This document shows, piece after piece, positions 4,542 to 54,713 of a stretch of DNA of 64,000 bases. The notes beneath the pieces are model-generated. The model was not told the origin of the DNA. It saw only the letters and a program-made list of their open reading frames with translations, and made no database searches. The first letter of the stretch is position 1; each line of letters opens with the position of its first letter. Origin of the DNA: Propionibacterium acidifaciens DSM 21887. Its GTDB lineage: Bacteria > Actinomycetota > Actinomycetes > Propionibacteriales > Propionibacteriaceae. The stretch covers positions 43,732-107,731 of the forward strand of contig NZ_KE384545.1 in the NCBI RefSeq assembly GCF_000426605.1, in the 5' to 3' direction. The position numbers and the translations under genes are program-made.

Positions 4542-4550
4542 CTCGCTCTG

Positions 4551-32332: not shown

Positions 32333-33301
32333 ATGTCCTTCCTCGCCCTCGCGTTCATGCAGCGCGCGCTCGTCGCGGCGCTGCTGTCCGGCGTCATGAG
32401 CCCGGCCGTCGGCACCTACATCGTCCAGCGGCGGCTCTCACTGCTCGGCGACGGCCTGGGCCACGTGGCCATCGCCGGCGTCGGCCTCGCCCTGATCACG
32501 GGCTGGGCGCCCACACCGATCGCCATCGCCGTGTGCGTCGCCGGCGCGGTCGCCATCGAGCTCGCCCGCCAGAGCGGCCGGGCGCCGGCCGACGTCGGGC
32601 TGGCCATCCTCTTCTACGGCGGGCTGGCCACCGGCGTCCTCATGGCGGGCATCTCGGGCCGGGGTTCGGGGGTGCTCTCGCAGTACCTCTTCGGCTCGCT
32701 CACCACGGTGAGCACCTCGGACGTCGTCGTCGTCGCCGTCATGGCCGTGGTCATCGTGACGCTGTGCCTCGGCCTGGCACCGCAGCTGTTCGCCGTGTGC
32801 GCCGACGAGGACCACGCCCGGAGCCAGGGCCTGCCGGTGCGGGCGCTCGAACTGTGCATCGTCGTCATGGCCTCGGTCACCGTCGCCGTCTCGATGCGCA
32901 CCGTCGGACTCCTGCTCGTGAGCGCCATGATGGTCGTGCCCGTGGCGGCGGCGAACAACCTCGTGACCGGCTTCCACCGCGCGCTGCTCACCTCGATGGG
33001 GATGGGCCTGGTGGTCAGCGCGGTCGGCGTGATCGGCTCGTACTACTGGAACACCGCCTCCGGAGCGACGATCGTCGTGAGCGCCATCGTCGTCTTCATG
33101 GTCAGCGCACCGATCGGCTCGTGGCTGACCCGCAGGAGGTCGCTGAGGGCCTCCGACGACCCTATAGTGAGGACAACGGGCGGGGGTCCCGACCCCCGGT
33201 GCGCCATGACGCGCCACGACACCGCGGACGGGGGCGCCGACGGCGGGGGCGTCCCCGGGAGGACACGGACGAGGATCGGTGACGCGGGCGATGAGCACTG
33301 A
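32333..33301 (+). CDS. znuB: Zinc ABC transporter permease
   Basis: 322-residue ABC-3 family permease with about eight hydrophobic helices. The family sequences YIVQRRLSLLGDGLGHVAIAG (near residue 30) and SAMMVVPVAAANNL are present. The C-terminal 50 residues are hydrophilic and rich in Gly, Asp and Arg, and overlap the zur start by 23 bp, an unusual but intact tail. Works with ZnuA and ZnuC in high-affinity zinc uptake. Confidence 0.93.
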   Translation: MSFLALAFMQRALVAALLSGVMSPAVGTYIVQRRLSLLGDGLGHVAIAGVGLALITGWAPTPIAIAVCVAGAVAIELARQSGRAPADVGLAILFYGGLATGVLMAGISGRGSGVLSQYLFGSLTTVSTSDVVVVAVMAVVIVTLCLGLAPQLFAVCADEDHARSQGLPVRALELCIVVMASVTVAVSMRTVGLLLVSAMMVVPVAAANNLVTGFHRALLTSMGMGLVVSAVGVIGSYYWNTASGATIVVSAIVVFMVSAPIGSWLTRRRSLRASDDPIVRTTGGGPDPRCAMTRHDTADGGADGGGVPGRTRTRIGDAGDEH

Positions 33302-33728
33302 CAGGGCCGGCACCACGGACAGGGCGCAGCCGCGCAACACGCGCCAGCGCCGGCTCATCCTGCGAACCCTCGGCGAGGGCCGCGGCTTCCGCACCGCCCA
33401 GCAGCTGCACGCCGAGCTCGTGGAGGCCGGCGAGCAGGCCTCGCTGGCCACCGTCTACCGCGTCCTCAGCTCACTGGCCGACAACGGCGAGGCCGACACC
33501 TGGCGCACCCCCGAGGGCGAGATGGCCTACCGCCGCTGCTCGACGGTCCGGCACCACCACCACCTGATCTGCCGCACCTGCGGTCGCACCGTCGAGGTCA
33601 GCGGCGGCCCGGCCGAGCGGTGGTCCGAGGCGATCGCCGCCGAGCACGGTTTCATCCAGCCCGAGCACCACGTCGAGATCTTCGGGATCTGCCCCGAGTG
33701 CGCCGCCCGCGGGCCGCTCGAGGACTGA
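33279..33728 (+). CDS. zur: Zinc-uptake repressor of the Fur family
   Basis: 149-residue Fur-type regulator. The N-terminal winged helix (NTRQRRLILRTLGEG, then SLATVYRVLSSLADNGEAD) is followed by metal sites: an HHHHLICRTCG stretch and a late CPECA pair for structural zinc. The GTG at 33279 has GAGGA upstream; an ATG at 33291 is an alternative. Last gene of the zinc operon, translated from within the znuB end, and presumably acting on the Zur box at 30454. Confidence 0.92.
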   Translation: MTRAMSTDRAGTTDRAQPRNTRQRRLILRTLGEGRGFRTAQQLHAELVEAGEQASLATVYRVLSSLADNGEADTWRTPEGEMAYRRCSTVRHHHHLICRTCGRTVEVSGGPAERWSEAIAAEHGFIQPEHHVEIFGICPECAARGPLED

Positions 33729-33784
33729 CGGTCGCGGGACGACCCCGCCGGTGGATCCGGGGCCCCTGGCGATAGGATCGATCC

Positions 33785-33900
33785 GTACAACACACATCAC
33801 CTCTGCGAGGGAAGCCGGTGGGAATCCGGCGCTGACGCGCAGCCGTGAGTCGGGGACGCCCCGACGAGTCGGAATGCTCGCTCCGGTGATTCCAACCTCG
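33785..33900 (+). promoter_or_regulatory. Cobalamin riboswitch
   Basis: The conserved core is clear: GAGGGAAGCCGGTGGGAATC, then CCGGCGCTGACGCGCAGCCG and TGAG, and after a hairpin (GTCGGGGACGCCCCGAC) a B12-box-like GAGTCGGAATGCTCGCT. A -10-like TAGGAT lies just upstream at 33774. The element points rightward to the truncated integrase 65 bp away. Cobalamin switches normally precede B12 synthesis or transport genes, so the pairing is odd. Confidence 0.88.
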
Positions 33901-33964
33901 ACCGCTGCCGCGAACGCACCGGCGACCGTGATGTCGTCGTGCATGCAGCACAAAGGATGACATC

Positions 33965-34861
33965 ATGAGCGCCACGACCTGGCCGCTCGGACAGCCCCAC
34001 GAGACCGAGCCGAGCACCGCACCCTCCCTCCACCCGCTGCCGACCGCGCAGATGATCCCGCGTCTGGACACCTACCTCCATGCGTGGCTCGCCACCCGCG
34101 CCGGAACCGTCGCCGACAAGACCCTGCGCACCGACCAGGATCTGCTCCGCCTCATCCCGCAGCCCTGGATGCGCCAGGATCCGTGCACCTTCACCCAGTC
34201 CGACGTGCGCCAGCTCCTCGCGCACTTCCGCTCGCGGGGACTCGGCGAGCTCTCGGTGCGCCGCTACCGCGCCAGCCTCTCGTCCTTCTTCACCTGGCTG
34301 CGCGAGGGCGGGCTCATCGACCGCTCCCCCGTGCCCCGGTCCGCCCGCCGCCCCGCCGAGCCGACCACCTCGGCGATGCCGTTCACCGCGGACGAGCTCC
34401 ACGAGGCCTTCCGCCAGTGGCAGGCCCAGGACCGCCGCCTGGCGCTCGTCATGCTCGTCCTGTCGCACACCGGGCTGCGCTGGGCCGAGGCCCGCTCCCT
34501 GCTCGTCGGGGACGTGCACCTGCGCGAGGGCTTCCTCGTCGTCCACCGGTCCACGCCCGAGGGGGTGAGCACCCGCGAGTTCGGACCCGAGCTCGTCCGG
34601 AGGGTCCCGCTCTCGAAGTGCGCGACCCGCGCGCTGGCCGAGCTCACCGCCGGGGCCCGCCCCGATCAGCTGGCCATGACCACCGACCGCGGCTGCCAGC
34701 TGCACCGCACCTCGGTGCTGCGCACGCTCGACTGGCCGCGCACGGGCCGGGGCCGCCGGCTGGTCGACCTGCGGCACACCGCCGCCCAGCTGTGGCTCGA
34801 CTGCGGCCGTTCCCCGGCCCAGGTGCGCTCCTGGATGGGGCACAGCCTCATCACGGGCTGA
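33965..34861 (+). pseudogene. Tyrosine recombinase truncated before the catalytic tyrosine
   Basis: 298-residue XerC-like frame. A SAM-like core-binding domain (about 35-120) is followed by the catalytic domain with Arg I (LSHTGLRWAEARSL), the second box VDLRHTAAQLWLD (normally HxLR) and the final WMGHSLITG. It stops at exactly the point where active enzymes continue to the nucleophile (a TTxRYTH-type motif). No such motif occurs in any frame in the next 100 bases. AAGGAT precedes the ATG. It should therefore be inactive as a recombinase, though a DNA-binding fragment could be made. Downstream of a cobalamin riboswitch. Confidence 0.8.
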
Positions 34862-39256: not shown

Positions 39257-40684
39257 TCAGCGCACGGACAGGCCGCCCTTGAGGACGCAGCGGCGCCGAC
39301 GGGCGAAGTTGCGGGCCGAGGTCAGGCCCTCTCCGGTCGGGCCGGCGATCGTGAAGGTCGCATGGCCCTCCCCTCCGATGCCGATCCCGTTGTAGGACGG
39401 GCCGTTCTTCACGAAGATCGTCGTCTGGATCCGCTTGCCCATCCGCGTGAGGGCCCGGACGTCGAGGGAGTGCATGACCGCCGTGTGGCGGTTGCCGTGC
39501 TCGGCCTCCACCGCCTTGTCGATGGCCTCGTCGACGTCCTTGACCCGGACGATGCCGAGGATCGGCATCATGAGCTCGGTCTGGACGAAGGTGTGCTCGA
39601 AGGGCACCTCGGCGATGAGCAGGCGGGTGCCGTCCGGAACGCTCAGGCCTGCCTCGGCGGCCAGGGCGGTCGCCGGCTTGCCGACCCAGGACGCCACGGC
39701 GTGGCCGTCCTTCGCGACGAAGGAGGCGAGCCGCTCGATGACGGCCGGGTCCCTGACCTCGACGGCGCCGTGCTTGAGCATCTCGAACTTGAGCAGGTCC
39801 GTGATCGAGTCGACCGCGATGACCTCCTTCTCCGCGGTGCAGGGCAGGTTGTTGTCGAAGCTGGCTCCGTCGACGATGTCCTCGGCCGCCTGGGGGATGT
39901 CGGCGGTGGCGTCGACGACGGCCGGCGGGTTGCCGGCACCGGCGCCGATGGCCTTCTTCCCGCTCGACAGGACCGACCGCACGATGCCGGGGCCGCCCGT
40001 CGCGACGAGCAGGCGCACCGCCGGGTGGGCCATCATCGCATTCGTGTTCTCGATCGAGGGCCTCTCCACGGTGGTGATGAGGTTCGCCGGGGCGCCCGCC
40101 TCGGCCAGGGCCGCGTTGATGCGGCGGATGAGCCAGTGGGTGATCCGGGTGGCGCGGGGATGGGGGCTGAAGACGACGGCGTTGCCCGCGGCGAGCATGC
40201 CGATCGAGTTGTTGATGACGGTCTCGGTCGGGTTCGTCGTCGGGGTGATCGCGCCGATGACGCCGAAGGGCGAGAACTCGATGGTGGTGAGGCCGTCGTC
40301 GCCGCTCCAGGCCTCGGTGACGATGTCCTCGACGCCGGGGGTGTCCAGGGCGGCCGCGCGGTTCTTGAGGCACTTGTCGCGCGCGTCGCCCATGCCGGTC
40401 TCCTCGACCGCGGCCTCGGACATGCGCCGGAGCGCGGCATCGTCGGAGCAGACGTCGCGGATCGTCTGGACGTAGCACCGGCGGTCGCGCATCGAGCAGT
40501 CGAGGTACTGCCGCCAGGCCCGGTCGGCGGCCTCGACGGCGTCGTCCATGGTCGCGAAGATCCCGCCGCCGTCGCGCCCGCCCGGGGCCGGGGCGGCCCG
40601 TCCGGGCTCTTCGGGGCGCCGCGCGACGACCTCCTGGACGGTCTGGCGGACGATCCTCGAGACGAGTTCGGGGCTGATGCTCAT
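39257..40684 (-). CDS. pduP: CoA-acylating propionaldehyde dehydrogenase
   Basis: 475-residue microcompartment aldehyde dehydrogenase converting propionaldehyde to propionyl-CoA with NAD+. An amphipathic N-terminal targeting helix (SPELVSRIVRQTVQEVVARR, residues 4-23) is followed by a flexible linker. Catalytic Cys282 lies in NNLPCTAEKEV, and GAITPTTNPTETV and GAGNPPAVVD are family motifs. Last gene of the long leftward pdu operon; its ATG overlaps the pduO stop by 4 bp. Confidence 0.96.
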   Translation of the reverse strand: MSISPELVSRIVRQTVQEVVARRPEEPGRAAPAPGGRDGGGIFATMDDAVEAADRAWRQYLDCSMRDRRCYVQTIRDVCSDDAALRRMSEAAVEETGMGDARDKCLKNRAAALDTPGVEDIVTEAWSGDDGLTTIEFSPFGVIGAITPTTNPTETVINNSIGMLAAGNAVVFSPHPRATRITHWLIRRINAALAEAGAPANLITTVERPSIENTNAMMAHPAVRLLVATGGPGIVRSVLSSGKKAIGAGAGNPPAVVDATADIPQAAEDIVDGASFDNNLPCTAEKEVIAVDSITDLLKFEMLKHGAVEVRDPAVIERLASFVAKDGHAVASWVGKPATALAAEAGLSVPDGTRLLIAEVPFEHTFVQTELMMPILGIVRVKDVDEAIDKAVEAEHGNRHTAVMHSLDVRALTRMGKRIQTTIFVKNGPSYNGIGIGGEGHATFTIAGPTGEGLTSARNFARRRRCVLKGGLSVR

Positions 40685-41760
40685 GAACGGTGCTCCTTCC
40701 GGGCTGCTGCGAGTGCGTGCGTGACGATGGACACGTCCTGGTCGACCGTGCCGCCGGAGACGCCGATGCCTCCGACCAGTTCGCCGTCGACGAGGACGGG
40801 GAGCCCTCCCCCGAAGACGACCACGCGGCCGCCGTTCGAGTTCTGGATCCCGTGCAGCTCCCCGCCGGGGCCCGAGGCGTCCCCGAGGTCGGCGGTGGGC
40901 CGCTTGAAGGCCGCGGCGGTGAACGCCTTGCCCTGGGCCAGGTCGAGGCTGCCCAGCAGCGAACCGGCCATGCGCTCCAGGAGCACGAGATTGCCGCCGG
41001 CGTCGACGCCGGCGAAGACGCAGGGCACGCCGAGCTCGGCGGCCCGCTCCTGCGCCGCGGCGGCCATGGTCCTGAGCGCGGCGAGGTCGTAGCGGGGCAG
41101 CTCGTGCGGGTCGGACGGCCCGGCGCTCCCGGCCGCGGCGGGGCGCGGGTCGCCGGCGGCGCCGCCGCTTCCCGCGGGGTCCTGGGGCCCCGCGAGCGCC
41201 CGGGTGACGGCCTCGCGCACGAGCCCCTCGAGGCGGGCCGTGTCGTGGCGGTGCTCGGCCAGCCGGGCCAGCGCGAAGAGCGCATCGGAGAGCCGGTTGA
41301 GATAGGTGACGATCTCGGGGCGTATCGGCTCGTGCTCGGCGGCGGTGAGCACCCGGCGCTCGGCCCGGCGGACGACCGTGCGGGCGCGGTGCAGGACCGC
41401 CGAGACCGGATCGCGCCCCGGGATGACGAAGTGGTGCTGCGGGCCCGTGACGGCCAGGCAGTCGTCGATGAGGCGCTCCAGCCCGGTGACGTCGTCCTCG
41501 CCGATCCGGTCCGTGAGGAGCCCGCGGCCCTTCTCGTCGCTGGCCAGCTCGGAGGCCAGGGCGAACAGGCGCCGCTGGATGCGGTGCAGCTGGTCGCGGG
41601 AGCGGGGATCGTCCATGGCCGCCTTCGCCTCGCCGATCGCGACGTTGGCCTCGTCGACGGTGCCGTAGGCCTCGACGAGGGGCGACTGCTTGGGCACGCG
41701 GGAGCCGCCGAGGAGGCCGGTCGTGCCCTTGTCGCCGCTGCGGGTGTAGACGTCGGGCAC
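40681..41760 (-). CDS. pduO: Corrinoid adenosyltransferase with HbpS/GlcG domain
   Basis: 359-residue two-domain enzyme. The N-terminal ATP:cob(I)alamin adenosyltransferase (about 1-190) has YTRSGDKGTTGLLGG, VDEANVAIG and YLNRLSDALFALARL. A Gly/Pro/Ala linker leads to a C-terminal GlcG/HbpS-like haem or corrinoid domain (about 220-355) with GGLPVLVDGELVGGIGVSGG. It regenerates the adenosyl-B12 needed by PduCDE inside the compartment. Length matches full PduO. Confidence 0.95.
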   Translation of the reverse strand: MPDVYTRSGDKGTTGLLGGSRVPKQSPLVEAYGTVDEANVAIGEAKAAMDDPRSRDQLHRIQRRLFALASELASDEKGRGLLTDRIGEDDVTGLERLIDDCLAVTGPQHHFVIPGRDPVSAVLHRARTVVRRAERRVLTAAEHEPIRPEIVTYLNRLSDALFALARLAEHRHDTARLEGLVREAVTRALAGPQDPAGSGGAAGDPRPAAAGSAGPSDPHELPRYDLAALRTMAAAAQERAAELGVPCVFAGVDAGGNLVLLERMAGSLLGSLDLAQGKAFTAAAFKRPTADLGDASGPGGELHGIQNSNGGRVVVFGGGLPVLVDGELVGGIGVSGGTVDQDVSIVTHALAAARKEHRS

Positions 41761-41762
41761 GA

Positions 41763-42035
41763 TCAGTCCCCCGCCAGCTCGACGGAGTCGACGATGCCGA
41801 CGACCGTCGAGTCGATCGGCGACTCCTTCCGGGACGCCGCGAAGCGGGCCGAGGAGCCCTTGGTGACGATGACCGTGGCGCCGATGCCGGCGCCGACGGT
41901 GTCGACGGCGATCTCGGGCCGGCCGGTCGGGCCCCCGTCGACGTCGAGGGGCTGGACCAGCAGGAGCTTGAAGCCGACGAGCCGTTCGTCCTTGCTCGTC
42001 GAGACGACGGTGCCGCGCACCGTGGCGAGGAACAT
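41763..42035 (-). CDS. pduN: Microcompartment pentameric vertex protein
   Basis: 90-residue EutN/CcmL-family shell protein that caps the vertices of the polyhedral compartment. It begins MFLATVRGTVVSTSKDE and contains FKLLLVQPLD and DTVGAGIGATVIVTKGSSAR, all typical. AGGGAGG lies 8 bases before the ATG. It sits 1 base after the PduM-like gene and 2 bases before pduO. Confidence 0.94.
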   Translation of the reverse strand: MFLATVRGTVVSTSKDERLVGFKLLLVQPLDVDGGPTGRPEIAVDTVGAGIGATVIVTKGSSARFAASRKESPIDSTVVGIVDSVELAGD

Positions 42036-42036
42036 C

Positions 42037-42894
42037 TCAGGCCTCCCTGATGATCGTGACGGAACGGGTGCGGGCGACGTCCGCGGCCATCGCCGTGATC
42101 TGCGCGCCGGCGGGGACCCGCAGCACCGTGCCGACCGGCAGGCGCTGGACGACGCGCTGGCTGATGAGCCGCAGCTGGACGCTGACGGCTCCCGTCCGGG
42201 GCGCCGGGGCCGCAGCGGCCCGGGCCGCCCGCCCGCCGACGGCGACGGGGGTCGCCGGGGCGGGCGCACCGAGCCTGTCCAGCAGTTCGCGGCGGCTCAT
42301 GCCCAGAGCCGTGGTGAGGGGGGCCGTCCTGGCGCGCTCGGCGCGCTCGTAGGCGGCCAGGACCGTGCGGGCCAGGGCCCCGGCGCGGGCGGTGCGCACG
42401 CCGAAGCCGCGCAGCGTCTCGAGGTTCTCGCGCATCACCGCGGCGAGGCCCTCGGGAATGGTGGGGAACCAGCGCCGCTTGTCGGGATCATCGGGGTCGC
42501 AGCCCGACGCGGCGGCGACGACGGGCCTGCCGGCCAGCAGGTAGTCGTTGAGCAGATTGCTCGCCAGGCAGTCGGCGATGCCGTGGGCGGTCTTGGCGGC
42601 GGCGTTCTGCGTGAGCGTCGCGACGACGAGCGTGTCGTGGGAGCCCGTGAGGTGCCGGTCGGCCGGTCTCATGGGGACCGAGGCGATGAGTCGCTGGTCG
42701 AGGATCCGCTCGGCGCTGGGGGTCTGGACGTACTCGAGCTCGACGCCCGAGGCGGCGAGCAGATCCAGCTCGCCGATGACCCGCTCGAAGCCGACGAGCG
42801 CCCCGGTGAAGAGCACGAGGGCGCGGCGGGGCGGCGGGGTCACGAGCTCGGCGAGGGCCCGGCGCACGAGGGCGCTCACGTCGTCGGCGGTCAT
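42037..42894 (-). CDS. pduM: PduM-like microcompartment flavoprotein-fold protein
   Basis: 285-residue protein at the pduM position of the operon. An amphipathic N-terminal helix (TADDVSALVRRALAELV) looks like an encapsulation peptide. The middle (about 23-180) resembles a flavoprotein/decarboxylase Rossmann-like fold: ALVLFTGALVGFERVIGELD, DTLVVATLTQNAAAKTAHG, LAGRPVVAAASG. The last 50 residues (VVQRLPVGTVLRVPAGAQIT, AMAADVARTRSVTIIREA) resemble the C-terminus of enterobacterial PduM, which is only about 163 residues long. Function within the compartment is unknown; a structural or cofactor role is inferred. Confidence 0.6.
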   Translation of the reverse strand: MTADDVSALVRRALAELVTPPPRRALVLFTGALVGFERVIGELDLLAASGVELEYVQTPSAERILDQRLIASVPMRPADRHLTGSHDTLVVATLTQNAAAKTAHGIADCLASNLLNDYLLAGRPVVAAASGCDPDDPDKRRWFPTIPEGLAAVMRENLETLRGFGVRTARAGALARTVLAAYERAERARTAPLTTALGMSRRELLDRLGAPAPATPVAVGGRAARAAAAPAPRTGAVSVQLRLISQRVVQRLPVGTVLRVPAGAQITAMAADVARTRSVTIIREA

Positions 42895-43739
42895 GAGGGA
42901 TCCTCCTCCCCCGCCGTCATGGGGATGCCCAGCGGCGTCACGAACAGGGGCTCGATCGGGCGGACGACCGGGCGGTGCAGCCGCGCCGCGAAGACCTCGG
43001 GGGCGTTGGAGAAGGAGCTCGAGCCGCCGACGAGGTGGACGACGGGCACGTCGACGCCCGCGAGGACGCGGTCGGCGATCGAGGCCATCTTGTCGAGCGT
43101 CGGGCGGATGACGCCCAGCACGCCGTCGCGGCGCCGCGGGTCCTTCTTCATGGCCTCCGCCTCCTCGTAGCTCAGCCCGTGGGCGCCGGCCAGGACGAGC
43201 GTCATGTGGTGCCCGCCGGTGGCCTCGTCGACCGACAGCCGCACGCGGCCCCCCTCGAGCACCGAGACCCCGGTGGTGCCGTGACCGATGTCGATGACGC
43301 ACCCGTCGGTGACGCCGAGCGCGCGGGCAGCCGCGACCGGCTCGTCGACGATCTCGTCGGGTTCCGGGCCGGCCGCCGACACGACGTTCTCGAAGACCCG
43401 GACGTCGCCGGCGCCGATCCCGGGCGGGACCGCGACGCTGGCCCGGTCGAACCGGTGCCCGAGCCGCGACTCGAGGTCCGCGAGCAGGCCGCGCACCGCG
43501 CCGGTGGCGCCGGCCCAGTCGACGACGACCCCGTCACGGACCACCGACGAGTGGACCCACCCGCCGGCGACGGGGCGGTTGGCGGCATCGACCACGGACA
43601 CGACGACGTTGGCGGTGCCGAGGTCGATGCCGAGCCGCAGCCCGCCCCCGTGCTCCTCGACCTCGCCCGTGCGCACGAGCTCGGCGAACCGGGCGATCGC
43701 CCGTTCGCGCCCGGACGGCGCCGTCGTGTCCGTGGTCAT
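42891..43739 (-). CDS. eutJ: EutJ-type actin/Hsp70-fold chaperone-like protein
   Basis: 282-residue ASKHA-fold protein. The phosphate-1 motif LGIDLGTANVVVSVVD is near residue 37, phosphate-2 VIDIGHGTTGVSVLEGG near 145, and the adenosine motif VHLVGGSSSFSNAPEVF near 235. Known in ethanolamine loci and in some gram-positive pdu loci; the role is not settled (assembly or reactivation). The ATG at 43739 has GAGG 6 bases upstream, better than the GTG at 43745. It overlaps the downstream PduM-like gene by 4 bp. Confidence 0.9.
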   Translation of the reverse strand: MTTDTTAPSGRERAIARFAELVRTGEVEEHGGGLRLGIDLGTANVVVSVVDAANRPVAGGWVHSSVVRDGVVVDWAGATGAVRGLLADLESRLGHRFDRASVAVPPGIGAGDVRVFENVVSAAGPEPDEIVDEPVAAARALGVTDGCVIDIGHGTTGVSVLEGGRVRLSVDEATGGHHMTLVLAGAHGLSYEEAEAMKKDPRRRDGVLGVIRPTLDKMASIADRVLAGVDVPVVHLVGGSSSFSNAPEVFAARLHRPVVRPIEPLFVTPLGIPMTAGEEDPS

Positions 43740-43782
43740 CCGCACCTCACTCGATCGGATCCGTTCACCGGCCTGCTTCTTC

Positions 43783-44061
43783 TCAGGCCTGCTTCGGCAG
43801 CAGCTTCTCCACGTCCGTGTGCGGACGCGGGATCACGTGGCGGGAGAGAACCTCCTCGCCCACGTTCGTGGCCGCGACGTGGCCGGCGTCGACGGCGGCC
43901 TTCACCGCGCCGACGTCGCCGCGCACCATCACCGTCACCAGCCCGGCGCCGACCTTCTGGTAGCCGATCAGCGTCACGTTCGCGGCCTTCGCCATGGCAT
44001 CGGCGGCCTCGACGGCCCCGACGTAGCCCTTCGTCTCGATGAGACCCAGCGCCTCACCCAT
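43783..44061 (-). CDS. pduJ: Microcompartment hexameric shell protein
   Basis: 92-residue single BMC-domain protein: [40 protein letters not shown] and the tail [16 protein letters not shown]. It is a close paralogue of pduA at the other end of the operon. The pore-loop triplet is G-A-G here against G-S-G in PduA. The ATG at 44061 has AAGGAGG 7 bases upstream; an ATG at 44067 is too close to that site. Confidence 0.95.
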
Positions 44062-44063
44062 GG

Positions 44064-44681
44064 TCATCCCTCCTTCTGTCGTTCCTTCTCGGTCGACGGT
44101 CCGTCACCGCCGACGGAAGCCCTGCGCCCGGACGGGCGGTTCGCCCGGCCCGTTCCGATCGTCGAGGGCGCGTCCTTCTGACGCGCCCCGCCCCGGGCCC
44201 CGTCCGGCGCGCAGCCGGAGCCCTCGTCGCCGGCCTGCTCGGCCCCGTCCTGCGCGGGCTCGCCCCGCTCGGATCCGGCACCGTCCTGGTCGGCATCGCC
44301 CTGCCCGGGCTCGGGCTCGGCCGGCGCCTCCTCGGGCGGGGTCGGGACGGCGGCCCCGTGGCCCGGCCGGTCCGCGCTGGTCGGCGCGCCGAGCCCGACG
44401 GTGAGCGGCGACAGGACGACGTCGCCCAGCTGGGGGTCGGGCCGCGGGATCACCGAGGTGGCGAAGACGGTGCTCACCCGGGCCGCCGCCGCGGCGGCCG
44501 CGGCGACCGCCGCGGAGACCGAGGAGACCTGCCCCTCGACCTTGACGGTGACCATGCCGGCGCCGTCGGTGGTCTCGTACCCGATGAGCCGGACGTTCGC
44601 GGCCTTCACCGCGACGTCGGCGGCCTCGATGGCCGCGGCCAGACCGAGGACCTCGATCTCGCCCAGGGCGTTCGTGAGCAT
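44064..44681 (-). CDS. pduK: Microcompartment shell protein with long C-terminal tail
   Basis: 205-residue protein. A BMC domain (about 1-88: [36 protein letters not shown]) is followed by a long low-complexity tail rich in Pro, Glu, Asp, Gly and Ala and ending in a basic stretch. This tail matches the PduK layout, but the Cys-rich iron-sulfur motif seen in enterobacterial PduK is missing; one Cys is visible in the tail (GSGCAPDG). It lies 2 bases before pduJ. GGAGGAGAGG precedes the ATG. Confidence 0.9.
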
Positions 44682-44698
44682 TGCCTCTCCTCCACTCC

Positions 44699-45091
44699 TC
44701 ATTGATGGCCCCGATTCCTCGACGACCCCGATCGGTCGCCGCCGATCCCGATGAGCGGCATGCGCTTGACGAGCCGGGCCGCGTCGGCGCCCATGGCGCG
44801 GACGCGCTCGGGCCCCGCGTCGACGTCGAGGACGAGATAGGGGCGCGCGGCGTCGAGCTTCTCGGTCGTCACGGCGACCCGCCTCCCGTCGACCCCGACG
44901 CCGACGCCGAGCCGGGAGGCCAGCGCCGCCCCGTGGGCCAGCGCGGCGGCGTCCCCGGCGTCGGCGCGCGTCACCGAGCCGGGCACGCCCTCCTCCTCCA
45001 TGCCGACGCGGATGAGGTCGATGCACTCGGCGCTCGCCCCCGGGCCGACCCCGACCCCGATCGTCGGCCTGGTCTGCTCGACGATCCTCAT
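44699..45091 (-). CDS. pduH: Diol dehydratase reactivase small subunit
   Basis: 130-residue partner of PduG. Known pairs exchange damaged cobalamin out of the diol dehydratase. The fold begins IVEQTRPTIGVGVGPGASAE and contains YLVLDVDAGPERVRAMGADAARL. The ATG at 45091 overlaps the pduG stop (ATGA) and has GGAAGGAG upstream; the GTG at 45097 is less likely. Length is normal for the family. Confidence 0.93.
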   Translation of the reverse strand: MRIVEQTRPTIGVGVGPGASAECIDLIRVGMEEEGVPGSVTRADAGDAAALAHGAALASRLGVGVGVDGRRVAVTTEKLDAARPYLVLDVDAGPERVRAMGADAARLVKRMPLIGIGGDRSGSSRNRGHQ

Positions 45092-46902
45092 GGCCACTCC
45101 TTCCGGGACAGCACGAGACCGGTGGCCACGGCGTTGCGCGGGCCCTCGGTGCCGCGGATGTTGGCCCGCCCGGCGACGACCCGGTACTCCCCGAGCGCCC
45201 TCGTGACGAGCTGCGGGATCTCGAAGTCGAGGGCCGAGCCGCCGACGAGGACGACATGGGCGATGTCGCGCACATTGCGGGTGGGGCTCACCGCGGCCAG
45301 GGCGCGCAGGGCGTTGGTGACGAAGACGCGCTCCTTGGCGCGGATCCTGATCCGGCGGATGGCCTCCAGCGGCTGGCGCAGCGGCAGCGGCAGCATCCCC
45401 TCGGCGTCGAGGACGACCGTGCGGGCGTACAGTTCGGGCGCCAGCGGCTCGTCGAAGAACTGGACGGTGCCGTCCTCGTGGCGGATGTTGAACAGGGTCT
45501 CGACGCGGGCCAGCGGGTGGCGCTTGATGCGCTCGGCGAGGTCGGTGCCCTCCAGGCCCAGCTCGGAGGCGATGAGCATGGTCACCATGTCCCCGGCCCC
45601 GGCCAGGTGGATCGAGACGGCCTCGTCGCCCTCGCGCAGGACCGAGGCGTCGGTGGACCCGGCGCCCATGTCGAGGATGGCGATCGGCAGCGAGGTCCCG
45701 GGGGTCGTCAGCGCACCGCGGATCGCCATGTCGGCCTCGACCCCGCCGATCTCGACGCGGATGCCGAACTGCCCGGTCATCTCCTCGGCGATGCGCTGCA
45801 TCTGGAGTCTGTCGGCCTTCACCATGACGGCCATGCCGACGGCGGCCTCCAGCGAGAACTCCCCCGCCAGGCCGCCGGTGACCGACTGGGGGACCTGGGT
45901 GTCGACGGCGAGCAGATCGGTGATCTCGATGTCGGACGGCTCACGGCCGGTGAGCCGCGCCATCGTGACGCGGACCTTCTCCATCATCCCGCCGATGTTC
46001 GTCCCGGGCTCGCCCCGCACGTCGCGCAGGAGGCCCGCTCGGGCGGCGGCGCGCATGATCTCCTCGGCGCCCGCCTCGACGTCGACGTCGACGGCGCGCT
46101 CGCCGAGCAGATGCAGGGTGCCCGCGGGGATGCGGCGCTCGGTGACGTCGCCGGCCGGGGTCTTGATGACGACCGCGGAGCGGTTGCCGACGAGGGCGCG
46201 GGCCATCGGGACGACGGCCGCCGTCTCCGAGGCGGACAGGCCGAAGAGGGTGGCGATGCCGTAGGGGTTCGACAGGGTCTCGATGACGCGGCCGGCCTCG
46301 GCCACCTCGATCGCCGCCGGCATGCCGGTCGGCACCCTGTCGATGAGCCGGACCTCGTCGACGATGGGCATCCTGCGTTCGAGCCGGTTGTCGACGAGGA
46401 CGCCGTCGTCGAGCTGCAGGATGGCGCCGGTGACCGTGACGCGTTCGGCGTGCTCGTTGATGCGCCGGGCCACGTCGCGGAAGTCGTGGGTGCGGTCGGC
46501 CAGGACGATGTACTGCTCCCCCGCCCTGGCGAGCCCGAGGTCCTCGATGCGGATCGTCGTGCCGACCGCGACGCCGAGCCCGCCGGGGGTCGACGGGTTG
46601 TGCCCGATCATCGTGGACTCGGTGATGATCGTCTCGGAGATCGTCTCCATGGCCACGTCGCCGATCACCGGCGCGGCCTCGTTGATGCGGATCAGGTCGA
46701 GCTCGCCGAGCTCGCGGCCGGCCCTCTCGAGGGCGACGGTGAGCCCTTGGAAGACCCCCTGGGTGTTCTGGGGGGTGCCCTTGATGCCCGTCGTGGGGAT
46801 CGTCGCCGTGGCCAGGAACCGCGGGGCGGCGCCGGCGGGGACCTCCGCCAGCGCCACCTCCGTGGTGGCGTTGCCGATGTCGACACCGGCGATGAGGGTC
46901 AT
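45088..46902 (-). CDS. pduG: Diol dehydratase reactivase large subunit
   Basis: 604-residue ASKHA-fold ATPase. Motifs are LIAGVDIGNATTEVALAEV at the N-terminus, EVRLIDRVPTGMPAAIEVAE, VDTQVPQSVTGGLAGEFSLE, ILDMGAGSTDASVL and VVLVGGSALDFEIPQLVT. It uses ATP to release inactive B12 from PduCDE, with PduH as the swapping subunit. Length is equal to the enterobacterial protein. AGGAG lies 10 bases before the ATG. Confidence 0.96.
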   Translation of the reverse strand: MTLIAGVDIGNATTEVALAEVPAGAAPRFLATATIPTTGIKGTPQNTQGVFQGLTVALERAGRELGELDLIRINEAAPVIGDVAMETISETIITESTMIGHNPSTPGGLGVAVGTTIRIEDLGLARAGEQYIVLADRTHDFRDVARRINEHAERVTVTGAILQLDDGVLVDNRLERRMPIVDEVRLIDRVPTGMPAAIEVAEAGRVIETLSNPYGIATLFGLSASETAAVVPMARALVGNRSAVVIKTPAGDVTERRIPAGTLHLLGERAVDVDVEAGAEEIMRAAARAGLLRDVRGEPGTNIGGMMEKVRVTMARLTGREPSDIEITDLLAVDTQVPQSVTGGLAGEFSLEAAVGMAVMVKADRLQMQRIAEEMTGQFGIRVEIGGVEADMAIRGALTTPGTSLPIAILDMGAGSTDASVLREGDEAVSIHLAGAGDMVTMLIASELGLEGTDLAERIKRHPLARVETLFNIRHEDGTVQFFDEPLAPELYARTVVLDAEGMLPLPLRQPLEAIRRIRIRAKERVFVTNALRALAAVSPTRNVRDIAHVVLVGGSALDFEIPQLVTRALGEYRVVAGRANIRGTEGPRNAVATGLVLSRKEWP

Positions 46903-46949
46903 GGCACGAATCTCCTGCTGCTCGAGGCGGGCTGCTCAGCGGGCCGGGC

Positions 46950-47483
46950 TCACTCGCTGTCCTTGAGGCGGCCGCGCTTCTCGTAGACGTCGGCGCCCTC
47001 GCGGATGAAGGCCGCGTTGATGGTGCAGCCGTAGTCCTTCTCGAGCTTGTCGGCGATGGCGTAGAGCTCGGCCTTGGTCGAGCGGTACGGGCGCAGCGCG
47101 CCGTAGACCTCGAGCAGCTCGTCGTCGGGCACGGCGATGAGCTCCGCCGCGCGGCGCATGTTGCGCGCCAGGGCGTCGCGGCCCGCGGACTCGGCGACCT
47201 GGGCCTGGAGCTCGAGGGTCTGCGGGGCGATGCGGAAGTCCTCGGCCTGCAGCTCGCCGCTCTTCAGCTTCTCGAAGGAGAACTCCGACAGGGGACGGCC
47301 GTTGGCCGCCCTGATCCTCTCGGGCGCCTTCTCGCCGAGCGGGTACTGGGACGCGTCGACGCGCCCGGCATCTGCCGCGGCGCCCCTGCCGGCCGCCGCG
47401 GCGGGGGCGACCGTGTCCTTGTCGAGGTCGAGGTTCGCCATGACCTCGTTCATGACCTGGCGGATCAGCTCCTCGGTGTCCAT
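46950..47483 (-). CDS. pduE: Diol dehydratase small subunit
   Basis: 177-residue gamma subunit of the B12-dependent 1,2-propanediol (or glycerol) dehydratase. An N-terminal amphipathic targeting helix ([18 protein letters not shown]) is followed by a linker and the conserved [20 protein letters not shown] and [28 protein letters not shown] precedes the ATG. The start lies within the last 19 bases of pduD. Confidence 0.95.
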
Positions 47484-48217
47484 GGCTTCTCCTCTCGGTA
47501 CTCGACCCGCAGGGCCTGGGGCTTCTTCCTCAGGTCGCACAGGCCGGCCTCCTTGATGTGGAACAGTGCGGCGATGGCCTGGTACTTCGGGCGGGCCATC
47601 TGGTCGTTGCGCACCGGCACGGGGTCCGGCGACTCGCCCTTGGCGTAGCGGGCGGCGTTCCTGCCGATCGCGCGGAAGGTCTCCAGGTCGATGAGCGGCG
47701 CCTGGCTGAACAGCTCGAGGTTGGACAGCGGGGGCAGGTCCTTCTGGTGGATGACCGTGGTACCGCGCGACTGGATGCCGATGCCGACGCCGGAACCGGA
47801 GTACTCGGCGGCGTCGTGGGCGATGAAGCCCACGTCGGCCGTGCGGAAGATCCTGATGAAGCGGTGGCTCAGGCCCTCCTCCTCGATGCCGGCGCAGACC
47901 TCGCGGATCACGTCGGCGTGCGGCAGTCCGATGATCGTCCGCTGCATGGCGCCGCCGAAGGCCGGCGCCAGGGCGATGACGACCTCCCGGGGATCGGTGC
48001 CGCGCTGGGCGGGACCGTCCTCGGTGACGACCAGCTCCTCCCCGTCGTCCGCCGACGTCCCGGCGGCCGGCGAGGTCGCGCCCCCGGTACCCGAACCCGT
48101 CGCGACGGGTTCGGCGACGGCCGTGGCGGTCGCCGCCGGCGCGGCCTCGACGCCCCGGCCGGCGGTGAGCTCGTCGACGACCTGCTCGATGATGCTGCGC
48201 AGTGTCTTCTCGTCCAT
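47465..48217 (-). CDS. pduD: Diol dehydratase medium subunit
   Basis: 250-residue beta subunit. The N-terminal 20 residues ([19 protein letters not shown]) form an encapsulation helix, followed by an unusually long Ala/Thr/Gly-rich linker (about 25-75). The core includes [39 protein letters not shown] and [20 protein letters not shown]. The ATG at 48217 has GAGGTG 7 bases upstream; the GTG at 48226 is an alternative. Confidence 0.95.
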
Positions 48218-48227
48218 GGTGCTCACC

Positions 48228-49889
48228 TCAGATGCTCTCGGGGCTGATGGCCTGGCGGATGTTCGAGAGCCTGGCCCATCTTTCGTCGCTGATCTGGTAG
48301 CCCGTGAGCGGCCCGGCGTAGGTGTTCGGGTAGTTGACAGAGCTGATCACGTGGAAGTCCTCGTCGAGGATTGCCGAGGTGTGCAGGTAGTCGCCCGCGA
48401 CGCGCTGGATCAGCATGTTGTAGACGGACTCGGCGACGTCCTCGAAGCCGCCGCGGATGAGGGCCCGGACGATGTCGACGCCGGTGAGGCCCCGGTTCAT
48501 GAGGTCCTCGGCCGCCTTGAGGTCCTCGACGACGTTGCGGGCGGGCATGTCCTGGGAGCCCCGGGCGTAGGTGGCCGCCTCGACCTCCTCGTCGGTGATC
48601 TCCGTGAGGCCGAGCTCGCGGAAGATCGCCTGCATGGCGCGGGCGGCCTTGTTGCGGGCCCTCACGACCTCCTCCTCGGTGACGGGCACGAGACCGCCGT
48701 CGATCCTGAGGTCGCGCTGGATGACGAGCCAGTCGTCGAAATCGTCGGCGTCCCAGTTCGAGCCAGCGAACATGTTGTCGTAGTTCGGCGTGGCCGAGTA
48801 ACCCGAGCAGATGAAGTCCGTGCCCGGCACGAACTGCATGAGCGAGCGGGCGACCCTGCGCAGGTCCGAGTGGGTGAAGGTCTGGTCGTTCGACGAGGCG
48901 CACTCGAGGTCGAGGGCCATGGCGATGAGGTTCTCGGCCAGCACGGCGCGGATGCCGCCGGGGACGGCGGCCGGGACGCCGATGCAGGAGACCGAGCCGT
49001 TCTGGATGCCCTGAGAGCCGGCGCTCTTGGTGAAGTAGAGGCAGCGGGCCTCCAAGTAGAGCATCGACTTGCCCTCGGCGTAGCCCATCTGGACCTCCGA
49101 GCCGGTGCCCGAGGTGAACCGCATCTTGAGACCGCGGGACGCGTAGCAGGAGGCGAGGAAGGCCTTCGACCACGGCGTGTCGTCCCCGTCCATGAACACC
49201 TGCTCGGTGCCGTAGACCGACACGGTCTCGGCGTACGCGGTGAAGCCGCGCATGCCGAGGGCGAGCTCGGTGGCCTCCTCGACGGAGCACTGGGTGAGGA
49301 TGCCGGGGCGCCCCACCTGGGCGCCCACCATGTTGGCGATCGCGTTGAACGGCGCGTAGCGCACGATGCCGACCGTCGTCTCCTCCTCGGCGAAGCCGCG
49401 CAGCGAGCCCTCGGCGGCGTCGGCGGCGATCTGCACCGGGTTGTCCTTGAGGTTGGTCACGTGGGCCTGGTTCGCGGGGAACAGCCGCGACCGCATCTTG
49501 GTCACGGCCATCATCATCTCGAGCACGTTCATCGTGCCGACGACCTCGACCATCTTGGCGGGGGTCATGGCCGTCGTGAGCTTCACGACCTCCTCGCGCG
49601 GCACGGTGAAGTCGACCATCCTGCGGGCCAGCTCCAGCGAGGGCGTCGCATTGACCTCCACCGCGTTGTCCAGGCGGATGCCGTAGTCGGCGATGAAGGT
49701 GTCGATCATGTCGAAGTCCTCGCGGCGCTTGCCGTCGAGCTCGACGACCACGCCGCCCTCGATCCTGATCGAGGGAGTGGGATCGGACGGCGAGTTCATG
49801 GCGATGAGACCCACCTCGGGCCACTCTCTCACATAGCCGTCCTGGCTGACCGGACGCGCGTCCAGAGCCTCGAAACGCTTGCTTCTCAC
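48228..49889 (-). CDS. pduC: Diol dehydratase large subunit
   Basis: 553-residue catalytic alpha subunit, near-identical in length to the enterobacterial enzyme. It begins [20 protein letters not shown] and contains [59 protein letters not shown] and [20 protein letters not shown], all family hallmarks. It converts 1,2-propanediol to propionaldehyde, or glycerol to 3-hydroxypropionaldehyde, by a radical B12 mechanism. GTG start with GAGG 8 bases upstream. Confidence 0.97.
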
Positions 49890-49906
49890 AGCGGATGCCT
49901 CGTTCC

Positions 49907-50698
49907 TCAGATGTACGGGGTGGTGGTCGAGACGGGGGCGTCGCCCATGGCGCCGAGCAGGCCGAGACCGACCTCGCGGGCCGCGACGATGGCCTGGCGC
50001 ACCGCCCCGGAGTCGCCGGTGAAGGCGGAGATGACCTCGTTGGAGTGGCTCGTCCCCTTGCTCGGGCTCGAGTAGGCGATGACGTCGATCGTCGACGCCT
50101 TGACCGCGGTGTCGGCGAGGACGACGCCGATGGCCGCCGGGGCCCCGACCGTGATGCCGAAGGACTTGCCGAGCGGGGCGCCGAAGGCCTTGTTGAGGGC
50201 GTGCGAGGCGCGCGCGGTGTACTGGAACTCCAAGTGGCCGGCGTCGTTGCCGTAGACGTCGCCGAAGGTCCGCTCGAGCTCGCCGAGGGTCACCTCGACG
50301 GCGCGGCGGGCGTCCGAGACGTCCTCGGCGCCGAAGACGATGAGGCTGCCGTGGCCGGCGCCGCCCTTGGTGTCACGGGCCAGCTCGATCGAGACGATCT
50401 CGGTGTTGGTGGCCTTGACGCCCTCGTCCGCCGCGAAGATCTGCGGTCCGGCGCCGGTGCGGTCGCCGATGATGCCGATCGAGCGGAACCCGGGGTCGAT
50501 GCCCATGAGCGCGTGGAGCTGCGGGTCGACGTTGGGGATGACCAGGCCGATGGTGTCGCCGAGCGCGGTGGTGCCGACGAACTGGGTGGCCTCGGGCACG
50601 GTGACCTGCTGCCTGGCCGCGGGCGCGGCGGGCCGATCGGCGGAGATCTTGGTCATGACGGCCGACATGATCTGGTCGACGAGCTGGTCGTTGGTCAT
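49907..50698 (-). CDS. pduB: Microcompartment trimeric tandem-domain shell protein
   Basis: 263-residue tandem BMC protein (BMC-T). The N-terminal helix TNDQLVDQIMSAVMTKIS is the part reported to tether cargo. The first BMC domain covers about 45-150 (TTALGDTIGLVIPNVDPQLH) and the second about 155-255 (GKSFGITVGAPAAIGVVLAD, SNEVISAFTGDSGAVRQAI). It is the second gene of the operon, 14 bp after pduA. Confidence 0.96.
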   Translation of the reverse strand: MTNDQLVDQIMSAVMTKISADRPAAPAARQQVTVPEATQFVGTTALGDTIGLVIPNVDPQLHALMGIDPGFRSIGIIGDRTGAGPQIFAADEGVKATNTEIVSIELARDTKGGAGHGSLIVFGAEDVSDARRAVEVTLGELERTFGDVYGNDAGHLEFQYTARASHALNKAFGAPLGKSFGITVGAPAAIGVVLADTAVKASTIDVIAYSSPSKGTSHSNEVISAFTGDSGAVRQAIVAAREVGLGLLGAMGDAPVSTTTPYI

Positions 50699-50712
50699 GA
50701 TCGTTCAGCGCC

Positions 50713-50994
50713 TCACTTCGCGTCGACGGACGGGAGGATCTTCTCCACGTCGGTGTGGGGACGCGGGATGACGTGGACCGAGACGAGCTCGCCCACGTTC
50801 TGCGCGGCGACCGCGCCGGCGTCGGTGGCGGCCTTCACAGCACCGACGTCGCCGCGCACGAGCACGGTCACCAGACCGGAGCCGACGCGCTGACTGCCGA
50901 CGAGCACGACATTGGCCGACTTCACCATCGCGTCGGCGGCCTCAACGGCGGGGACGAAACCCTTCGTCTCCACCATGCCAAGGGCTTCCTGCAT
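50713..50994 (-). CDS. pduA: Microcompartment hexameric shell protein, first gene of the operon
   Basis: 93-residue BMC-domain protein: [40 protein letters not shown] and [16 protein letters not shown]. The pore triplet is the canonical G-S-G. The ATG at 50994 has GGAGGAG 6 bases upstream. About 390 bp of control region separate it from divergent pduU. Confidence 0.96.
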
Positions 50995-51098
50995 TCTGAA
51001 CTCCTCCGTTGGGTGTGAACACGAGCCGCCGTCGACCTCTCCGGCCACGGGCGGGAAGTACTGACGACTCTAAGCCAGGAAATCAGAGAGAAGGTCAC

Positions 51099-51168
51099 GT
51101 GGAGCTCCACTTTTCAGCCCTTCTCGAAAGACCTGGAACGACCAAAAAGCACCCCGGGGACCAAAAAG
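51099..51168. promoter_or_regulatory. Control region of the divergent pdu operons (putative PocR sites)
   Basis: The region between pduA and pduU holds a perfect 12-bp palindrome GTGGAGCTCCAC (51099-51110) and two direct copies of ACCAAAAAG at 51141 and 51160, exactly 19 bp apart. Direct repeats spaced about two helical turns are the usual operator form for AraC-family activators such as PocR. The T-runs stand out from the GC-rich background. Binding is inferred. Confidence 0.55.
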
Positions 51169-51388
51169 TGCAACTGGCCGGGACGCCCGGCGACAATACC
51201 GTCAGGACCGTCGCGCGGGCCTTGACCCGGAATGCGACGGCGCGGCGACAATCAGGAGTGGTGCGCCCGGTGGACGCGCGGATCGGCCCGTCACCGCCGG
51301 CACCACCCGCCGGGACGCCGGGCCGGAGGGGGCGCCGGGCGGACCGCCCGGCGCCGAACCACAGGAGCCGACCCGTAGGAGAGAGGCG

Positions 51389-51733
51389 ATGGCGACCGCG
51401 AAGCAGCGCATCATCCAGGAATTCGTCCCCGGCAAGCAGGTCACGCTCGCGCACGTCCTGTCGAACCCGGACGACGGCCTCCACCCCAAGATCGGCCTGC
51501 CGAACAACGGCGGCGCGATCGGCATCATGACCATCACGCCGAGCGAGGCGGCGATCATCGCCGCCGACGTGGCGACCAAGGCCTCCACCGTCGAGCTGGG
51601 CTTCGTGGACCGCTTCTCCGGATCCCTCGTCGTGCTCGGCCGGCTCGCCGACGTCGAGGCCTCGATCAGCGCGGCGACCGACGTCCTGTGCGACGAGCTC
51701 GGCTTCGCCCCCGCCCCCCTGACCCGCACATGA
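51389..51733 (+). CDS. pduU: Microcompartment shell protein, circularly permuted BMC domain
   Basis: 114-residue shell protein of the permuted hexamer type (PduU/EutS). The N-terminal segment ATAKQRIIQEFVPGKQVTLA would form the small beta-barrel cap over the pore. The BMC core follows with IGIMTITPSEAAIIAADVAT and [30 protein letters not shown] precedes the ATG. It is transcribed away from pduA and overlaps pduV by 4 bp. Confidence 0.94.
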   Translation: MATAKQRIIQEFVPGKQVTLAHVLSNPDDGLHPKIGLPNNGGAIGIMTITPSEAAIIAADVATKASTVELGFVDRFSGSLVVLGRLADVEASISAATDVLCDELGFAPAPLTRT

Positions 51734-52155
51734 GGCGCCTGCTCATGGTCGGCAGCGTGGGCTGCGGCAAGACGACGCTCATGCAGCGCCTGCACGGGCA
51801 GGAGATCCGCTACGCGAAGACCGAGACGATCACCGCCGAGGACGAGGTCGTGGACACCCCCGGCGAGTACCTCGAGCTGCCCTTCTACAAGCACGCCCTC
51901 CGCCTGGCCTCCTTCGACCGGGAGCTGGTGGTCATGCTCGCCTCGGCCACCGCCGCCGAGAGCAGGTACCCGCCCGGTTTCGCGACCTTCTTCACCGTGC
52001 CGGTGCTGGGCGTCGTCACGCAGATCGACCGCGCCGGGCCGGACGCCGTCGAGGCGGCCGAGGCCCACCTGCGCCTGGCAGGGGCGACCGAGGTGCTCCG
52101 CGTCTCGGCCGTGACCGGCGAGGGCATGGCCGAGCTCGAGGCGCGTCTGGCGTGA
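51730..52155 (+). CDS. pduV: PduV/EutP-type small GTPase
   Basis: 141-residue Ras-like P-loop protein. The P-loop is GSVGCGKTT (residues 8-16), the switch II-like motif is DTPGEYLE, and TQID substitutes for NKxD. In enterobacteria it binds PduU at the outside of the shell, which the operon order here supports. The ATG overlaps the pduU stop. It converges on pduQ. Confidence 0.92.
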   Translation: MRRLLMVGSVGCGKTTLMQRLHGQEIRYAKTETITAEDEVVDTPGEYLELPFYKHALRLASFDRELVVMLASATAAESRYPPGFATFFTVPVLGVVTQIDRAGPDAVEAAEAHLRLAGATEVLRVSAVTGEGMAELEARLA

Positions 52156-52217
52156 GCCCCCGGGCCCCGCCAGGGCGAGGACGCCCGGAGGGACGCACTG
52201 CCCGAGGCCCGGGGGGC
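52156..52217. terminator. GC-rich inverted repeat between convergent pduV and pduQ
   Basis: GCCCCCGGGCC (52156-52166) pairs with GGCCCGGGGGG (52206-52216) across a 39-base loop. It sits immediately after the pduV stop and ends 7 bp before the pduQ stop codon. Probable bidirectional terminator; no T run. Confidence 0.5.
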
Positions 52218-52223
52218 GGGCGC

Positions 52224-54612: not shown

Positions 54613-54713
54613 CGTCAACCTCCGCCCTCAGGGTAACAGGTGAGAAGGTCAGGGGAAGGGGGTCCCTCCCCCGGGCCCGCCTCGGTCCGGTCGGCCCCGC
54701 CCCGGGCGCCCGC

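Follow-up and report, generated by a model that had tools for sequence, protein, structure and literature searches.

A cobalamin-type riboswitch leader paired with an apparently dead tyrosine recombinase in the Propionibacteriaceae

Introduction

The usual targets of cobalamin riboswitches are genes for B12 synthesis, B12 transport and isozymes. In a 64,000-nucleotide stretch of the genome of Propionibacterium acidifaciens DSM 21887 (here called the window), a leader of this type stands directly ahead of a gene resembling a tyrosine recombinase, designated REC. The genus is used for B12 production. Why should a vitamin-sensing RNA precede an integrase-like gene? An earlier note on this DNA offered two explanations: either the switch once served a B12-regulated gene that a rearrangement removed, or B12 now controls a protein derived from a recombinase. 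The present analysis adds to that note the loss of catalytic residues, the conservation of the unit in nine species and the neighbouring pdu operon. As far as comparative sequence analysis can tell, a B12-type leader very probably drives a domesticated, catalytically dead recombinase. The features are collected in Table 1. G000 denotes the window's own genome, and "genus" is used for the genome group codes g1, g9 and g18.

Table 1. Features of the locus, in window coordinates.
Feature	Position	Strand	Basis or remark
Fur/Zur-family gene upstream of REC	33279..33728	+	PF01475
Cobalamin riboswitch aptamer (RF00174)	33743..33899	+	31.5 bits, E 3.3e-4
-10-like hexamer TAGGAT, perhaps the leader's own promoter (putative)	33773..33778	+	TANNNT conserved
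Hairpin over part of the Shine-Dalgarno sequence and the start codon, stem CGTGATGTCGTC / GATGACATCATG	33927..33967	+	predicted
Apparently catalytically dead tyrosine-recombinase-derived protein REC, 298 aa	33965..34861	+	PF00589, PF02899
N-terminal SAM-like core-binding domain	34064..34306	+	PF02899 at aa 72-113; model helices within 34-114; alignment
Catalytic-domain remnant PFT...WMG, in all nine REC proteins	34379..34846	+	R172 and R270 both kept
pdu genes: pocR, Fe-ADH, BMC shell, diol dehydratase (48228-49889), reactivase, pduO, pduP (39257-40684)	39257..54618	-	convergent with REC
15-nt exact match to the anticodon arm/variable loop of tRNA-Ala(CGC), candidate REC operator (weak lead)	54641..54655	+	blastn

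The Riboswitch Leader

The Rfam covariance search that the earlier note had proposed places the aptamer exactly at the gathering score of its family, and it is the weakest of the 12 cobalamin matches above the cut-off in the 3.04-Mb genome. Of its 11 other switches, eight have a nearest likely gene that can be named, in every case a B12-related or transport gene (methylmalonyl-CoA mutase, two FecCD permeases, a Peripla_BP_2 protein, a BPD permease, CbiM, a tetrapyrrole methylase and CobD/CbiB). For the remaining three (L001, L004 and L007) no gene downstream was identified.

Equivalent leaders occur in eight further genomes of the family. A covariance model (R1) was trained on five leaders, those of the four Propionibacterium genomes, the window's own among them, and of G020, a member of another genus; four further leaders, independent of the training set, were found with R1 in loci fetched for their protein. 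Four of the eight related leaders reach an Rfam cut-off (G001, RF01482, 50.8 bits against 50; G003, RF00174, 35.9 bits; G169 and G206, 39.2 and 39.8 bits, the match covering only positions 47-167 of a 189-position model). Two fall slightly short (G002, RF00174, 27.9 against 31.5 bits; G020, RF01482, 49.2 against 50 bits), and two (G160 and G202) have no gathering-level Rfam match and score 119.5 and 131.2 bits with R1. Across the nine sequences, eight of the 37 predicted pairs are changed on both sides, three in the closing helix and five in the variable arm. By score and covariation, the window leader is classified as a cobalamin riboswitch, which presumably responds to B12 as its class does.

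Compared with cobalamin/AdoCbl riboswitches (RF00174, RF01482), the aptamer core and the predicted hairpin over the ribosome site are alike, yet where those switches usually serve B12 genes, this one precedes what appears to be a dead recombinase. The B12 riboswitches of Propionibacterium freudenreichii named in the available part of one report (cbiL, cbiB and mutA; PMC5644110) share genus and RNA class with the window's, and none of these three precedes an integrase-like gene.

A TANNNT hexamer lies 24-30 nt 5' of the aptamer core GGGAAGCCGG in all nine leaders, and it may be the leader's own promoter. A sigma-70 consensus scan of positions 33500-35000 returned no promoter-like site. Elsewhere, the window also holds an FMN riboswitch (10995-11117, minus strand, 87.4 bits).

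The Expression Platform

Ahead of the start codon, a hairpin is predicted in all nine leaders, with longest stems of 6-12 bp. Its 3' arm includes the GGA of the Shine-Dalgarno sequence in seven leaders; in the other two (G000 and G002) the hairpin includes part of the Shine-Dalgarno sequence plus the start codon. Against mononucleotide shuffles the z-score is -4.9 in the window and -0.3 to -4.8 in the other eight, with the weakest values in G206 (-0.3), G202 (-1.1) and G160 (-1.2). The arm sequences are GATGTC/GACATC in G000 and G002, and mostly CGTCGTC with GACGACG or GGATGACG in the rest; as judged by eye, a pair that is A-U in these two is G-C in others. A search for T-tailed terminators between positions 33500 and 35000 found none; this, together with the predicted hairpin over the ribosome site, fits translational control. 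Turning expression off when B12 is bound is the usual behaviour of this riboswitch class.

The same region contains a short frame ending MSSCMQHKG, for which the earlier note had considered a leader peptide or the stump of the original gene. The frame coincides in part with the 5' arm of the predicted hairpin, and by eye an ATG is present at this place in only two of the nine leaders (G000 and G002), so that neither a conserved leader peptide nor a gene stump is supported; the stretch is a predicted hairpin arm.

Conservation of the Leader-Recombinase Unit

A search for the integrase in 57 genomes (the window's own included) gave matches in 29. The four Propionibacterium genomes, again with the window's own, have REC in the same place, after zur and behind a B12-type leader (znuABC is absent from the stretch read in G001), and G020 has a shorter REC behind the same leader. 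Across 198 genomes of the family, R1 detects nine leaders at 119-180 bits, with the next best match at 60.1 bits, and leader and tyrosine-less gene are paired in nine of the 198, in three genera. Among 293 genomes of an order sample, the five training leaders (158-180 bits) were followed by matches of at most 60.1 bits; among 394 genomes of a class sample, no leader other than the window's own reached E <= 1e-15. Both of these wider samples were scanned with stricter filters, which lose weak matches.

In a scan of the genomes of 84,980 species, the best 80 of 102 REC relatives were analysed. By eye, seven of these 80 lack the tyrosine and 73 retain it (the window's own genome and G003 are outside the seven). 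All seven have the leader, and none was detected beside the 73 tyrosine-bearing loci at E <= 0.01. Six related loci on viral contigs all have the tyrosine, again by eye. In a tree with 41 live rows (39 of the 73 tyrosine-bearing loci plus L016 and L047; L150, with 16 aa before its stop, was left out), the nine REC proteins form one clade (support 100/99), within which the REC of G003 is very divergent (branch length 2.89).

These distributions bear directly on the two explanations of the earlier note. Loss of a B12-related gene, with a recombinase moving in behind the switch, would agree with the B12-related or transport nature of the eight genes identified near other switches of the genome. 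The suggested comparison across relatives, in which the switch might always have preceded a B12 transport gene, gives REC instead at all nine loci; no leader is followed by another gene, and this course of events is scarcely credible. At the level of sequence, the second explanation, that B12 now controls a recombinase-derived protein, finds support in the pairing at nine of nine leaders in the 198 genomes and in purifying selection between near pairs (see below). A literature search confined to main texts found no case of a B12 switch paired with a recombinase or integrase.

The REC Protein

The integrase-like frame described in the earlier note, 65 bp beyond the aptamer with a usable ribosome site, is confirmed: it begins with ATG, is preceded by AAAGGA at 33952-33957, and encodes a protein with matches to Phage_integrase (PF00589, E 9.6e-8) and to an N-terminal SAM-like domain (PF02899, E 8.4e-5). 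An AlphaFold2 model built from 33 sequences (pLDDT 89.2, pTM 0.66) resembles the DNA-bound Tn1549 and lambda integrases (TM about 0.6, rmsd about 5); the Foldseek match to 6emz_A has E 1.0e-12 and TM 0.64.

All nine REC proteins end 0-12 residues past the W-x-G motif, ahead of the position of the nucleophilic tyrosine. In the alignment, whose active-site residues presumably have the roles generally known for them, the catalytic tyrosine and the lysine are present in none of the nine and in all 41 live relatives. The first arginine is kept in nine of nine and the second in eight (it is absent from G003), and both are present in 41 of 41 live rows. His-II is found in two of nine against 40 of 41, and His-III in three of nine against 41 of 41. 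By fold and sequence REC is thus assigned to PF00589, but with tyrosine and lysine gone it is predicted not to be an active tyrosine recombinase.

The N-terminal core-binding domain is kept in four proteins (G000, G001, G002 and G202) and missing in five (G003, G020, G169, G160 and G206). The tree, in which some inner branches are weak, implies several losses, and this repetition suggests that the short remnant of the catalytic domain may carry the function alone.

Selection on REC

Ratios of dN to dS were calculated with a Nei-Gojobori script. Between G000 and G002, the ratio for REC is 0.27 overall, falling to 0.16 in the core and to 0.09 in residues 221-298, and zur in the same pair has 0.385. 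Within genus g9, the REC core has 0.34-0.49 in the six pairs, with codon-position changes in the order 3 > 1 > 2 in each, and PduP in the same pairs has 0.16-0.26, so that REC evolves faster than PduP. Ratios for distant REC pairs are 0.42-1.07. REC is constrained where this is measurable, yet more loosely than a metabolic enzyme.

These values also weigh on the reading that REC is a decaying integrase pseudogene that came to lie by chance behind an orphan riboswitch. The truncated C-terminus, the repeated loss of the N-terminal domain, the long branch of G003, the distant-pair ratios of up to 1.07 and the frequency of chance long open frames at this G+C content would all suit decay. The codon-position bias, the near-pair ratios of 0.16-0.49, the retention of leader and hairpin, and the common truncation point of the nine proteins argue against it, and decay is considered improbable.

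Ancestry at tRNA Genes

The closest homologs of REC among the best 80 of 102 relatives are actinobacterial integrases (PF00589) associated with tRNA-Ala(CGC) and tRNA-Thr(CGT) genes, with 27-53% identity over the matched part; identity to the aligned live actinobacterial integrases is 25-45% in the alignment. Unlike REC, which has lost the lysine and the tyrosine, these live integrases keep lysine, both arginines, His-III and tyrosine in 41 of 41 rows, and the leader was detected at none of the 73 tyrosine-bearing loci. In the 43 of the 73 tyrosine-bearing loci that were scanned for tRNA genes, 40 have one near the integrase (26 tRNA-Ala(CGC), 12 tRNA-Thr(CGT) and two others), and no tRNA gene lies beside any of the seven tyrosine-less loci. 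REC in the window is likewise not beside a tRNA attachment site, the only tRNA gene of the window being tRNA-Asn at 4550-4623. Since the live relatives lie beside tRNA genes, the ancestor of REC was probably an island integrase targeting a tRNA site.

The pdu, eut and zur Neighbourhood

The genes upstream of REC differ between genera. A zur neighbour is found in the four Propionibacterium genomes, and tblastn of the flanks revealed no Fur/Zur gene in the stretches read from the other five REC genomes; a zinc link through zur was therefore set aside.

In G003, G020, G160, G169 and G202, REC and the final gene of the pdu operon, pduP, converge on each other across 21-213 bp, and in G206 across about 550 bp. 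In the latter genome a small frame (L126, about 7346-7681) lies between the two genes, and it may encode a GIY-YIG protein. The nearby convergent pduP is thus present in six of nine and not in G000, G001 or G002. In the window, REC and pduP are 4.4 kb apart, with an apparent MFS remnant and an ABC/FtsX pair in the interval; what separates REC from pdu in G002 is a longer MFS gene together with eut genes; and in G001, leader and REC are present without diol dehydratase or PocR, and EutB is on another contig. In the 609-aa frame of the window's MFS gene (33797-35626, minus strand), similarity to MFS_1 is confined to residues 55-180, and the counterpart in G002 (L128:7707-9239) has a much longer match. 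The gene in the window looks like a remnant, perhaps left after the loss of eut genes such as those of G002.

Occurrence across the family was compared in the same 198 genomes. The diol dehydratase PduC is found in eight of nine REC genomes and 38 of 189 others (Fisher p 4e-5, uncorrected for kinship), and PduC or EutB in nine of nine against 73 of 189 (82 of 198 in total; p 3e-4, likewise uncorrected). EutB by itself is found in four of nine against 50 of 189 (54 of 198 in total). This and the distance between REC and pdu in G000 and G002 speak against regulation of pdu or eut by REC. Among the pdu-bearing genomes of the family, 38 of 46 are without the leader-REC unit, so pdu control does not need REC. 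In genomes that lack the unit, 20 pdu loci, of which 18 extend as far as pduP, gave no REC by tblastn, and 14 of these 20 gave no B12 switch in an Rfam scan.

The convergent arrangement could also mean that the transcript acts rather than the protein, a B12-controlled RNA running towards pdu and interfering with it, in the manner of the Listeria antisense to pocR. Antisense-acting cobalamin riboswitches have been described (PMC9943018, PMC7677406), and the distance to pduP is as small as about 21 bp in G160 and 57 bp in G020. Beyond the REC stop, predicted folding is unremarkable in seven of the nine genomes (z -1.75 to +1.60), which makes read-through possible there; strong hairpins follow the stop in the other two, G002 (z -6.1) and G169 (z -9.4), and count against it. 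So do the hairpin predicted to cover the ribosome site or start codon, the absence of a T-tailed terminator from the part of the window scanned, codon-level selection on the protein, and the survival of the unit where pdu is distant (G000 and G002) or absent (G001). An acting transcript is accordingly judged a poor candidate. The G169 hairpin itself (L076, 827-936) is near-perfect, exceeds 25 bp and lies directly after the stop; a word very similar to that of its arm (GGACCGGGTTCGGAACCGTCCCC) recurs upstream of pduA in the same genome, and the hairpin is perhaps a small mobile repeat.

A more serious alternative is that REC is a B12-controlled dead recombinase with a job elsewhere (for example modulation of XerC/D or other integrases, exclusion of related islands from their tRNA site, or DNA organisation) and that its proximity to pdu is a matter of history. 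G001 keeps leader and REC without pdu, the relatives are integrases beside tRNA genes, and several lineages have lost the N-terminal domain. Set against these points, proximity to pduP is kept in six of nine genomes and three genera although the upstream genes differ, and B12 control would make most sense for a B12-dependent pathway. Such a job elsewhere is possible but rather unlikely.

A Candidate Operator

If REC acts on pdu, it may recognize a site there. The 15-nt match to tRNA-Ala(CGC) begins 23 bp before the first start of the pocR frame (TTG at 54618; an ATG follows at 54612). It is the best blastn hit (E 0.008-0.009) of four tRNA queries, taken from beside live relatives, against about 167 kb of REC and pdu loci, examined post hoc. 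It is the sole exact copy in the 3.04-Mb genome, whose own tRNA-Ala(CGC) has one mismatch to it, and among REC genomes only G002 has a counterpart, which is shorter. The core of its complement, GACCTTCTC, recurs before pduA, and the pocR and pduA sites both have counterparts in G002. The part of the 15-nt match that is repeated before pduA measures 10 nt. The core occurs six times in the window against 0.5 expected, four of these away from pocR and pduA.

The longest word common to the regions upstream of pocR and pduA in G000 is TGACCTTCTC (10 nt), which is equalled in 35 of 200 shuffles; in G002 it has 9 nt and is equalled in 49 of 200. These common words are not significant alone. A pattern, GACCTTCTCWCYKR, occurs three times in G000 and five times in G002, two per genome being before pocR and pduA, and not on the contig of REC in the other seven REC genomes; the test is circular because the pattern was derived from the four pocR and pduA sites themselves. 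When the regions upstream of pduA and pocR were compared across the REC genomes, they showed no motif specific to REC.

A second element, resembling TGCAC-TTTNTGGTC, is repeated before pduA by eye in genomes with and without REC; it is therefore not REC-specific and was rejected as a REC operator. Two direct copies lie before pduA in the window (51088-51230, minus strand) and in L244-L253, and they are perhaps sites of PocR, an AraC-type protein.

The 15-nt site may instead be a promoter element. That REC is a B12-controlled repressor whose operator is the relic of an old attachment site before pocR, the presumed pdu activator, is a long shot on this sequence evidence. If it were true, an island integrase would have become a vitamin-gated regulator that kept its DNA specificity and lost its chemistry.

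Proposed Function and Known Systems

The history and function that we infer for the unit, from B12 response to DNA binding, repression and target, run as follows. A tRNA-targeting island integrase would have been domesticated, most simply once, within the Propionibacteriaceae; lysine, tyrosine and most of the histidines would have been lost, the fold kept, and both active-site arginines kept in eight of nine. A cobalamin/AdoCbl riboswitch would also have taken control of the domesticated integrase. At low B12, the ribosome site would be free and REC made; when B12 is bound, the hairpin predicted over the ribosome site would close and REC would not be made, an OFF switch whose direction follows that of the class. 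REC would most likely bind DNA without cutting it and repress genes that are useless without B12, the nearby pdu operon first and eut in G001 and G002. Regulation of pdu or eut by REC is put forward tentatively and may well be wrong. Besides the points already named, the proposal has against it the persistence of leader and REC in G001 without diol dehydratase or PocR, the disappearance of the N-terminal DNA-binding domain from five proteins and of the second arginine from G003, the lack of a REC-specific motif at pduA or pocR, the faster evolution of REC than of PduP, the weak hairpin scores of several leaders and the borderline score of the window's aptamer. The composite reading, a B12-switched, domesticated and dead DNA-binding recombinase that would hold down B12-dependent genes, is given a little less than an even chance.

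Two known systems resemble parts of this arrangement. In Listeria, a B12 riboswitch-controlled antisense RNA, Rli39/aspocR, acts on pocR, and Rli55 acts on eut (PMC7677406, PMC9943018). A regulator connected with pdu or eut stands under a B12 switch in Listeria and, on the proposal made here, in the REC unit, and the Listeria logic shows how B12-dependent pathways can be kept down in the absence of B12 (PMC7677406, PMC9943018). The Listeria outputs described there are RNAs, whereas the conserved output of the REC unit looks like a protein and its control looks translational.

The second system is TnsF of the Tn6022-like Tn7 transposons, in which an inactivated tyrosine recombinase domain without the tyrosine site is reused for DNA recognition (PMC10293859). 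TnsF is like REC in having a tyrosine recombinase domain without the tyrosine (PMC10293859); it differs in that it selects transposon targets and has zinc fingers, whereas REC is encoded in the chromosome downstream of a riboswitch. Nothing closer than TnsF was found in the available main texts on inactivated recombinases (including PMC10293859, PMC9431673 and PMC8987985). By analogy, the REC unit would work like a vitamin-gated DNA-binding regulator, near Listeria pdu/eut control in its logic and near TnsF in its material.

If this is true, the unit would couple a vitamin sensor to a protein from a mobile element, with an exapted recombinase as the output of a riboswitch. It would possibly be the protein counterpart of the RNA logic by which Listeria silences B12-dependent microcompartment genes in the absence of B12. 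With one clade, a dead active site and live relatives that have tRNA neighbours, it would also offer a tractable case of integrase domestication.
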